64,000 nucleotides of DNA, taken from contig NZ_FQVI01000006.1 in the NCBI RefSeq assembly GCF_900129135.1, positions 62,001 through 126,000 on the forward strand, in the 5' to 3' direction. Within the stretch, counting starts at the first letter, position 1, and the number at the start of each line of letters is the position of its first letter. The notes beneath the pieces are model-generated. The model did not search any database. It was not told where the DNA came from and saw only the letters and a program-made list of their open reading frames with translations. The position numbers and the translations under genes are program-made. Source of the stretch: Lactonifactor longoviformis DSM 17459 (lineage in GTDB: Bacteria > Bacillota > Clostridia > Lachnospirales > Lachnospiraceae). This document shows positions 21,291 to 36,611 of the stretch, one piece after another.

Positions 21291-21887
21291 TTAAGCAGAC
21301 GGTGTGAAAGAGCCGCCGTCCATGACAGTCACAGTTATAGTTACTGCCTTATCACCATCCATTTCCACGGTAAGAATGGAGCCTACAGAGATGTCATCCA
21401 GAGAACCCTCAGAGGTTTCTCCCCTGGTGTCCAGTACAATAGACACGGAATCATCTGCAGCAATGGTAGTTTCCTCACCGGTCAGTTCTAGCCCGCCCGG
21501 CAGACCAATCCCGTTGTCCGGAGGAGTGAAGCCGTCCTCACCGCCGGGAGGGGTACCGCCATTCTCCGCGTCCGGGGGAGTGAAGCCGTCCTCGCCGCCG
21601 GGAGGGGTACCGCCATTCTCCATGTCCGGGAGTGTGCCGCTGTCCTCACCGTCTGGAGGAGTGCCGGGGGTTTCACCATCCGGAGGCTGCATCTTCTCAT
21701 TCTCAGAACGCTCACCAAGGGCCAGTGTGATGGTGCCGTCTTCCACTGCCGTTACCTGACCCAGGATACTTTTGCTCTCCTGAGAGGTATCTTTGGCTGT
21801 ATCATCGGAACTGCCTGACTGACAGCCCACAGCAAGAAACGCTGCTGCGGTGAGACATAAGATTCCGGTAAGTATACGCTTCTTCAT
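21291..21887 (-). CDS. Small lipoprotein with tandem Pro/Gly/Asp repeats
   Basis: A protein of about 198 residues. ATG 21887 is preferred because it gives a compact lipoprotein signal (LTAAAFLAVGC); ATG 21899 is the alternative. After the lipid anchor comes a short domain (ILGQVTAVEDGTITLALGE), then a nine-residue repeat of the type GTPPGGEDG/FTPPDAENG present about six times. A conserved-looking C-terminal domain follows (ETTIAADDSVSIVLDTRG, ending TITVTVMDGG). The repeat is probably an extended spacer at the cell surface. I do not recognise a function. Confidence 0.7.
   Translation of the reverse strand: MKKRILTGILCLTAAAFLAVGCQSGSSDDTAKDTSQESKSILGQVTAVEDGTITLALGERSENEKMQPPDGETPGTPPDGEDSGTLPDMENGGTPPGGEDGFTPPDAENGGTPPGGEDGFTPPDNGIGLPGGLELTGEETTIAADDSVSIVLDTRGETSEGSLDDISVGSILTVEMDGDKAVTITVTVMDGGSFTPSA
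21517..21675. repeat. 54-bp tandem repeat within the lipoprotein gene
   Basis: A 54-bp unit (18 codons, itself two 9-codon halves) is present in two nearly identical copies starting at 21526 and 21580, with degenerate half-copies after them. The near identity at DNA level suggests recent expansion by slippage or recombination. Confidence 0.75.
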
Positions 21888-22098
21888 AAACCATATCATC
21901 CCTTTCCGCCGGAGCTTCTATGTCAGTCCGGCTAACATGGTTATCATAAGTGCTGTTCCTTAAATTACTCTGAAAGTAAGGGAAGTTCCACAAGTTATTT
22001 CCTGAAAATCCGACGTATAATTTTCAGAAAATTCACGTTTGTAAAAAATGCACAAAGTTTGTCGAACCATGTAAAAAACCCTCCTTTTCATCAACAAT

Positions 22099-22370: not shown

Positions 22371-22408
22371 TTAGGTTTACCATAACCTAAACATTATGGT
22401 AAACCTAA
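22371..22408. repeat. Perfect 15-bp inverted repeat
   Basis: A perfect inverted repeat (22371-22385 with 22394-22408) has an 8-nt spacer whose CCTAA echoes the arms. It lies in the gene-free region between the DnaA-like boxes and the long inverted element. It has no T tract, so it is a possible protein-binding site rather than a terminator. Confidence 0.65.
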
Positions 22409-22499
22409 CATAAACTACCGTTCTCCCCCCTGCTAAACAACGAAACACTAGGTTAGGAAAGTCTTTCCGCCGATCAGTTCCAGCCAACAAAGTTTATCC

Positions 22500-22707
22500 C
22501 AAGAAAAGATGGGTGCAAGGGTGGCAGCAGAGGGCGACTGGCAGGCGAGGTCAAGCGGAGACGAGCCGAAGATCCACGGCCAGTGAACACTTAGCCGCGA
22601 AGGCTTTCCTGAGCTGCTTAGTGATCACTAGACCGTTAGCTGAGGCGGGCGCAGCCTCGAGTCTGCCAGTCGCCCTCTGCTGCCACCCTTGCACCCATCT
22701 TTTCTTG
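22500..22707. ncRNA. 208-nt element with 45-bp inverted arms: candidate structured RNA or mobile element
   Basis: The arms 22500-22544 and 22663-22707 are perfectly complementary. They enclose 118 nt that can fold further: GAGGC/GCCTC around 22642-22657, AGCC/GGCT around 22593-22605, CACT..AGC/GCT..AGTG around 22588-22624, and an AGTGATCACT palindrome. It is GC-rich inside an AT-rich gap, between the V-ATPase operon terminator and the DnaA-like boxes. Size and a long closing helix recall Firmicute structured RNAs of about 200 nt such as the raiA motif, but I cannot confirm a match. No target-site duplication is evident for a MITE. Strand is undetermined. Confidence 0.5.
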
Positions 22708-22716
22708 AACATCAAT

Positions 22717-22748
22717 AAAAAACGAGACCTGATCCCAAAGACCAGGTC
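22717..22748 (-). terminator. Terminator of the V-type ATPase operon
   Basis: On the minus strand GACCTG (22743-22748) pairs with CAGGTC (22726-22731) and is followed, after CTCG-type bases, by TTTTTT (22717-22722). It starts 8 nt beyond the last gene of the operon. Confidence 0.75.
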
Positions 22749-22755
22749 CCCTGAC

Positions 22756-23376
22756 TCATCCTTTCCCCTGCATCCTTTTTATTACCTTCAGCCGGGTAAA
22801 TTCCTCACGTTCCTTCTCCTCCAAAGCATTCTGAATATCCTTGCTCAGCGCTTCAAATTTAGGAATCGTTATATTTTTCAGTGCGTTAGCGCGTTTCTGT
22901 GTTTTTTTAATATTGACGGCCAGCCGGTAAGCAGCGTTCTCCACCATAGAGAGCCGGATAGTCAGCTCCTTCACCCTCTCAAATGCAGCCTTGGCCTCGT
23001 CCAGTACAGATTTTGTGCCATAGTAGGCATAAGTTGGAACAGAAGAACCTTTATCATACTCTACAAGCGGTATCTCCGTACCCATAACACTTCTGGTTTT
23101 AATCCGGATGGAAGTCTCCACCGGGACGGAGAAGGATATCTGTGCCACCATATTAATGCCCAGCACCATATTGGCGCTCTGAAGGGCCGCATAGGCGGTT
23201 CGGAACGTTACATCAATCTGTGACTGAATCTCTTTCGCCTGGTCAATGAGGCCCATCAGCTCGCGGATGAGAATGTTCCGTTTTTTATCCATGAGTTCAA
23301 AGCCCTGTCTGGAGAGGGCAAGGGAGTTTTTTGCCAATATAAGGTTTCCTTTGGTAGGAAATGTATTCGGATCCAT
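22756..23376 (-). CDS. atpD: V-type ATP synthase subunit D
   Basis: This is a 206-residue, mostly helical protein with the subunit D pattern: an N-terminal PTKGNLILAKNSLALSRQGFELMDKKRNIL and a C-terminal ALEEKEREEFTRLKVIKRM. Subunit D is the central rotor shaft that links the catalytic A3B3 head to the membrane ring. It is the last gene of the nine-gene operon and starts 17 nt after the B subunit gene. Confidence 0.95.
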   Translation of the reverse strand: MDPNTFPTKGNLILAKNSLALSRQGFELMDKKRNILIRELMGLIDQAKEIQSQIDVTFRTAYAALQSANMVLGINMVAQISFSVPVETSIRIKTRSVMGTEIPLVEYDKGSSVPTYAYYGTKSVLDEAKAAFERVKELTIRLSMVENAAYRLAVNIKKTQKRANALKNITIPKFEALSKDIQNALEEKEREEFTRLKVIKRMQGKG

Positions 23377-36506: not shown

Positions 36507-36515
36507 ATAGAATAA

Positions 36516-36589
36516 GGGACAGGGCAAGTTGAATTTGGGACAGGCCGCCCTGATTTTGGGACGTGTTCTTTCTAGAAAGAACACGTCCC
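36516..36589. repeat. REP-like palindrome with GGGAC repeats
   Basis: A perfect 32-bp palindrome (36558-36589) is preceded by two GGGACAGG units at 36516 and 36537; the palindrome itself begins GGGACGTG. In the transcript it forms a 15-bp hairpin ending about 20 nt before the YqeY start, next to the ribosome site. It resembles dispersed GGGACGTGTTC-type intergenic repeats of Firmicutes. Confidence 0.6.
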
Positions 36590-36611
36590 CCTTTTAAAAA
36601 GGAGGTACCAT

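Follow-up and report, generated by a model that had tools for sequence, protein, structure and literature searches.

A dispersed palindromic element of the Lachnospiraceae with a structured core and variable, matching arms

The window analysed here, a stretch of 64,000 nucleotides from the genome of Lactonifactor longoviformis DSM 17459, contains between two genes a large hairpin that raises a simple question: is it a structured RNA, a signal belonging to one of its neighbours, or a mobile repeat? The original prediction, made from the window alone, had left the choice between a large non-coding RNA, perhaps of the raiA kind, and a miniature inverted-repeat element. H is the name used here for the family of short, gene-less, dispersed hairpin elements to which this copy belongs.

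The hairpin and its surroundings

The two arms of the hairpin (22500-22544 and 22663-22707, plus strand) are 45 nt each and 100% complementary across a spacer of 118 nt. This match is far beyond chance and bears out the perfect 45-bp inverted arms originally proposed. The RNA fold of 22490-22720 reaches -149.7 kcal/mol against -77.3 kcal/mol (sd 4.5) in shuffled sequences (z -16.1), a value equalled by none of 200 shuffles, and helices of the interior recur in other copies, in agreement with the foldable core of nested helices that had been described. The structured core of 118 nt (22545-22662, plus strand) has counterparts at 35 other places in the host genome and in other Lachnospiraceae genomes. 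At its base GAGG (22547-22550) pairs with CCTC (22655-22658), as judged from folds and pair counts; this pair is present in one subfamily and in the window copy. Further in, the conserved motif CCGAAGATCCA (22566-22576) has the conserved motif TTAGCTGAGG (22636-22645) as its partner, the CC of the former pairing with GG at 22644-22645 and its AG with CT at 22640-22641, while its GA would face the GA at 22642-22643 as tandem mismatches. The cap, which consists of GA, AGG, the loop CTTT, CCT and GA (22599-22612), is near-invariant across the H family; all of these features are given on the plus strand. Aligned cores share the same plan: CC-GA-AG / CT-GA-GG forms an internal motif, a long helix occupies the middle, and the cap reads GA-AGG-CTYT-CCT-GA.

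The gap that holds the element is bounded by a minus-strand ORF (21291-21899), for which no Pfam match was found, and by the gene for V/A-type ATPase subunit D (22756-23376; PF01813). The sole ORF over the 208-bp unit is a mechanical one of 236 aa (22513-23223) that also runs antisense over most of the subunit D gene. A terminator-like stem with a T tail (22724-22750, minus strand) adjoins the hairpin where the ATPase operon had been thought to have a terminator of its own (22717-22748). The scan for such sites counted only loops of 3-8 and gave two in 901 bases against 1.0 in shuffles, and the position of this site after the operon weighs as much as the scan in calling it terminator-like. A 15-bp perfect hairpin at 22371-22408 is also terminator-like on the minus strand. 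H itself was rejected as an intrinsic terminator: no T run follows either arm and the scan sites lie at 22724-22750 and 22371-22408 instead, which agrees with the earlier view that the element ends neither gene.

Copies in the host genome and taxonomic range

A covariance model of the core (R1) gives 36 matches in the host genome, the window copy included; four of these are partial, three being cut at contig ends and one scoring 43.9 bits. Comparison at the DNA level also finds 36 places in the host genome, of which the window copy accounts for two, one per strand; the remaining matches span the core plus at most a few arm bases. The cores of the window copy and of L003 are 81% identical. No DNA-level match was found in 40 relatives of other genera. 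L001, L002, L019 and L020 were omitted from the host-copy tables as duplicates. H copies lie within ~150 bases of the end of nine host contigs (C15, C22, C30, C42, C44, C51, C60, C74 and C75); the assembly therefore probably breaks at these hairpins, so that host copies may be missed.

A second model, R2, was built without the host genome from 106 matches in other genomes only. It matches the window copy over its full length at 22534-22673 (plus strand; G+C 62%) with a score of 101.0 bits (E 2.2e-24). Prevalence was estimated as a lower bound, the searches over 40 genomes having scored 8 candidates per genome under strict filters: R1 finds H in 19 of 396 other sampled Lachnospiraceae genomes (20 of 397 with the host) and in 19 genera, and R2 is positive in 10 of 392 genomes of an order sample, nine of them Lachnospiraceae (the host included) and one outside, and in 2 of 398 genomes of a phylum sample, both Lachnospiraceae. 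Among the genomes sampled, H occurs nearly only in this family. In GTDB contigs at least 116 stretches match the short exact cap pattern. For 115 of these the title gives Lachnospiraceae, Blautia, Dorea, Roseburia, Eubacterium, Eubacteriales or Clostridia(les); the remaining stretch (L162), titled Candidatus Cryptobacteroides, is without a model match. A plasmid or phage origin was rejected. One query (L062:1480-1660) gave no match in plasmid and phage collections, and of the viral contigs three carry the cap pattern and none the longer pattern, with no model match in any of the three.

In a tree of 106 cores, from which four antisense self-matches had been removed beforehand, the 14 host copies included form one clade with support of 0.95. 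Every copy has its nearest neighbour within its own group in nine of the ten other labelled groups, four of these nine not being clades, and in the tenth, which mixes two genomes, this is true of none of three copies. This grouping fits separate bursts of H in most lineages.

Covariation of the core, turnover of the arms and the folding strand

Covariation in related genomes, which the original prediction had named as a check on the fold, proved to be strong. Alignment A1 holds 22 of the 25 host copies with both arms readable, L022, L033 and L036 having been removed by hand as near-duplicates. In these 22 copies 29 of 48 pairs are changed on both sides against 17.6 in shuffles, and 89% of alignment cells pair against at most 46% in slid controls. 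Among 104 distinct sequences of other genomes 44 of 46 pairs show double changes against 36.2 in shuffles, and 90.8% of cells are paired against 31-48% when slid, in an alignment that was fitted to the model and hence leans to its structure. Kinship inflates counts of double changes, yet the slid controls retain kinship and fall far lower. The alignments contain a few duplicates, some loci being the same contig (L065 and L123, for example).

The arms behave differently from the core. In the 25 host copies with both arms readable they are 41-66 nt long, with 10 pairs perfect and 15 carrying 1-4 differences; in 102 distinct copies elsewhere the arms have a median length of 33 nt, with perfect pairing in 17 of the 102. 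Across H the arms are mostly 20-70 bp long and the core measures ~115 nt. Mean identity of an arm to its partner is 98%, and identity between copies is 65% for the arms against 80% for the core. The arm of the window copy scores 45 in alignment with its own partner; against the arms of 21 other host copies its mean score is 8.7 (best 14), compared with 8.8 (best 15) when shuffled. Within subfamilies, block and indel differences between copies are present symmetrically in both arms. Independent compensatory mutation cannot easily give changes of this kind, whereas arm-to-arm copying can, and the wholesale and symmetrical change of arm sequence would be explained if one arm were copied from the other by template switching or conversion at the hairpin. 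Homogenised arms and an inverted spacer have both been reported as outcomes of template switching between inverted repeats (PMC8604942). At L032 (586-722) the hairpin stands in the opposite orientation to its outer flanks, an arrangement that template switching can produce and that arm-to-arm recombination would give as well. H resembles the published examples of inverted repeats homogenised in this way in its perfect arms, block changes and spacer inversion (PMC8604942, PMC6649704). The examples treated there are yeast genes and nematomorph mitochondrial genes, whereas in H the process is one that we infer, and it concerns a mobile element of bacteria whose core is under selection.

Copying between arms would erase the unpaired motifs of the core, and these are nonetheless conserved; selection on the core is therefore indicated, and would be what keeps these motifs. 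Arm copying and selection both seem to be at work in H, and can thus be separated and put to the test. This carries a caution for those who search for RNAs, as near-perfect palindromes may covary through arm-to-arm copying as well as through selection on an RNA. The core is probably selected to fold as a single strand, of either RNA or DNA, and the fold would aid spread or tolerance of the element. Transcriptional read-through of H would give a long hairpin of the kind cut by RNase III.

Alternatively, H could be a structured non-coding RNA that serves its host, or many hosts, and is present in several paralogous copies, with the arms as its closing helix and mobility incidental. The strong covariation and the conserved unpaired motifs would suit such an RNA. 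A search of the whole window with Rfam 15 at the gathering score matched only a tRNA elsewhere. At E <= 5 the element itself gave only five rows for miRNA precursors plus two more, none of them near its cut-off, and miRNA-precursor rows are what any long perfect hairpin gives. Among 20 loci with relatives the only Rfam match was TwoAYGGAY in L041 and L046, outside H in both. With the raiA motif RNA (ModT) H shares a size class near 200 nt. The raiA RNA is described as an abundant transcript with two pseudoknots and a sigA promoter in four clostridial species, and its usual neighbours are given as comFC (74%) and raiA (66%) (PMC11706538). H differs in giving no Rfam match, in its many copies and in its neighbours, the window copy standing between an ORF with no Pfam match and the gene for ATPase subunit D; neither comFC nor raiA, which are common but not universal neighbours, lies beside it, and identity with the raiA motif was rejected. 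Copies with unlike flanks, and those of other genomes, have by eye no common upstream or promoter-like sequence beyond the short foot described below, and in other genomes the orientation of H relative to neighbouring genes is mixed. With no Rfam match, many copies, no shared upstream sequence and mixed orientation, the raiA or large RNA half of the original prediction was not supported.

Wobble pairs bear on which strand might fold. In the arms G.U exceeds A.C by 66 to 51 in other genomes (p 0.20) and by 8 to 5 in the host genome, an excess that vanishes or reverses at looser scores (176:172 and 192:219; host 8:7 and 11:11). A further looser count gave 189:180, and 11:19 in the host. Counts of 62:18, 57:8 and 81:25 were obtained on the model-fitted alignment, which leans to the structure and in which two columns dominate; in alignment A2, helix columns 97-140 and 31-190 show G.U at high frequency and never A.C. 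When distinct events within clusters were counted at three thresholds, other genomes gave 13:9, 14:6 and 10:2 for the core and 13:6, 11:4 and 4:2 for the arms, and the host genome 5:2 and 2:1 respectively. Taken together, these counts do not discriminate between RNA and DNA and lean weakly to the plus strand of the window; the two fixed G.U columns would somewhat favour RNA over DNA as the folding strand. A host RNA is also consistent with these two columns, with the modest surplus of G.U over A.C in the core and with the long upstream flank common to many host copies, which could hold a promoter. Against it stand the lack of shared upstream sequence among copies with unlike flanks, the mixed gene orientation, an arm in the window unrelated to those of other host copies, the absence of a clear wobble bias in the arms, and a patchy presence with lineage-specific bursts. 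We regard this explanation as improbable.

Ends, mobility and relation to known elements

Evidence for movement comes from the ends of units centred on H in three related genomes. In two of them (CAJSZQ and JAUNPS records) the units begin with GTTACNGTTCACA and end with its complement (the GTTAC shell), those bearing H being 202, 236-239 and 292-293 bp long. Target duplications of 8 bp that differ at no more than one position flank 12 of 21 units scored, a set in which L209 was scored on both strands and several members have poor end repeats, and 11 of 20 distinct elements; shuffled right flanks gave a mean of 0.04 and a maximum of 1. In JAUNHC, the third genome, it is the arms that start with GATGTCGGGGTC (the GATGTCGGGG shell), and a 7-bp duplication with at most one mismatch accompanies four of five elements, all of one genome, against a shuffled mean of 0.19. 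H-bearing units in the GATGTC shell measure 206-207 bp. Hence at least two different kinds of end enclose one and the same core. For a third shell (CTGTRCRGTTGGA) duplications reached 3 of 39 at the best offset, as shuffles also did, and a first loose scan found duplications in 21 of 126 cases where shuffling of the flanks left 9 of 126, so that single cases such as L103 are no proof.

In the host genome the picture is different. Neither a target duplication nor a clear outer end repeat was found for the window copy, nor a convincing one for the other host copies, and the GTTAC end is not enriched there (16 matches against 26 in a reversed control). What host copies have, in 23 of 25 cases, is a foot: the left arm is preceded by CA and the right arm followed by GTCC. 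It is absent from the window copy and, owing to the inverted hairpin, from L032, and in other genomes CA and GT are found at 48 of 102 copies. The joined flanks of the window copy have no host-genome match longer than 11 nt among the matches listed. They resemble a string, GTTTATCC..AACATC, common in other host copies, a likeness too short for a claim of an empty site.

The dispersed copies, together with the duplications round H-centred units in the three related genomes, are the grounds on which we infer transposition. They favour the miniature inverted-repeat half of the original prediction. Its test for a mobile repeat, identical dispersed copies with target duplications, came out largely positive: copies are dispersed and relatives have duplications, but the copies are not identical and no duplication was found for that in the window. 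Bacterial MITEs have been described as short, gene-less, intergenic and dispersed, with terminal inverted repeats and direct repeats of 7-9 bp (PMC10969869; PMC2229807). H is short, has no coding gene and is present in many dispersed copies (36 host matches); terminal inverted repeats are seen in relatives, and in the window as the arms themselves only; and target duplications accompany two shells in three related genomes, with none seen for the window copy. On the working definition the relatives of H count as bacterial MITEs, save that an autonomous partner is missing. In our view H is probably a non-autonomous palindrome of MITE-like character, whose structured core is conserved and whose arms are homogenised through copying between them. 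It would have spread by transposition, presumably through DDE transposases acting in trans.

Several candidate partners were considered. Among the loci searched, no unit with GTTAC ends and a duplication fell in the range from above 293 bp to 4 kb. IS256 was not supported, being present in one of four genomes with no GTTAC ends bounding the copies inspected, and neither was UPF0236, found in none of the four, a weak answer since the positive control was silent too. L055 and L067, from two genomes of one genus, carry 18 to ~290 nt from an H copy what we take, from its recombinase and TnpB-like ORF, to be an IS607-like element; it was rejected as a carrier because the sequence common to both loci ends before the hairpin is reached, 18 nt away in one and ~290 nt in the other.

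A Y1/HUH transposase (RAYT) acting on single-stranded DNA could in principle move H as a REPIN-like element, with the foot CA/G...C/GTCC as its recognition site. The foot beside the arms, as counted above, agrees with this, as do inverted pairs of H hairpins 234-258 nt apart, found at 7 of 93 loci (L112, L113, L145, L155, L165, L048 and L068). The model search for such pairs took in 72 of the 80 pattern loci L097-L176 and 21 others; L177-L212 were searched with R2. Y1 transposase is uncorrelated with H, being found in 12 of 20 genomes with H (two matches in the host) and missing from the other eight, and found in 11 of 18 without an H match. The 7- and 8-bp target duplications around H are not expected of Y1 transposition. 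REPINs, which are moved by RAYT, are like H in having imperfect hairpins, inverted pairs and compensatory changes (PMC3116915). Their ends are conserved and their middle variable, whereas H has a conserved middle, variable arms and no observed link to RAYT, and a REPIN-like origin appears very unlikely.

We give equally little credence to a fixed intergenic palindrome, serving as bidirectional terminator, mRNA stabiliser or protein-binding site and spread by recombination only. In its favour none of 26 host copies lies inside a called ORF (4 of 98 elsewhere), 12 of the 18 copies for which both neighbours were called are flanked by convergent genes, and the window copy adjoins a terminator-like site. 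Elsewhere only 18 of 90 copies lie between convergent genes, no T run follows the hairpin, and the target duplications and end repeats of relatives are at odds with a palindrome of this sort.

The MITE-like reading of H sets it apart from the usual picture, in which bacterial MITEs are insertion sequences minus their transposase, with interiors free to vary. H reverses this: the interior is conserved, its shape is kept over many genera and it has more than one kind of end. QMITE2 of Coxiella burnetii, Correia/NEMIS, ERIC and RUP likewise have transcripts predicted to form long hairpins (PMC10969869; PMC2229807). H is unlike those MITEs in its structured core with conserved loops and covarying helices, shared across 19 genera in one sample and set in unlike end-repeat shells, and in the turnover of its arms. 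The main text of the MITE review (PMC10969869) has no occurrence of Lachnospiraceae, Clostridi- or Firmicutes, and no earlier description of the H family was found in the open literature searched; the new aspect is a conserved core common to unlike ends, with variable arms. A bolder suggestion would make the core a bacterial counterpart of the SINE body, a single-strand structure, RNA or ssDNA, selected for a role of its own in mobilisation or survival. It would have been handed on between unrelated MITE shells that use different transposases, each copy remaking its arms by snap-back copying. We consider this unlikely.

Three minor observations may be added. The GTTACNGTTCACA end is frequent (at least 180 pattern rows in one genome, one site being counted up to three times), and units of 131-157 bp with GTTACNGTTCACA ends and 8-bp duplications are found in L223, L224, L222, L230, L232 and L227; short GTTACNGTTCACA-ended units in L227, L232, L188, L206 and L104 have no H match. 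Many host copies of H have in common an extended flank in which another large palindrome lies. This dispersed palindrome of ~400 nt, self-complementary over more than 300 nt at ~70%, lies upstream of many of the host copies, for example at L017 (1785-2191 and 2274-2678, in tandem) and L006 (1758-2181), and has no Rfam match. Finally, a repeat at 36515-36594 of the window, which matches in reverse too, is also present near L010 2969-3054 and L013 2615-2701 of the host genome among the matches listed.
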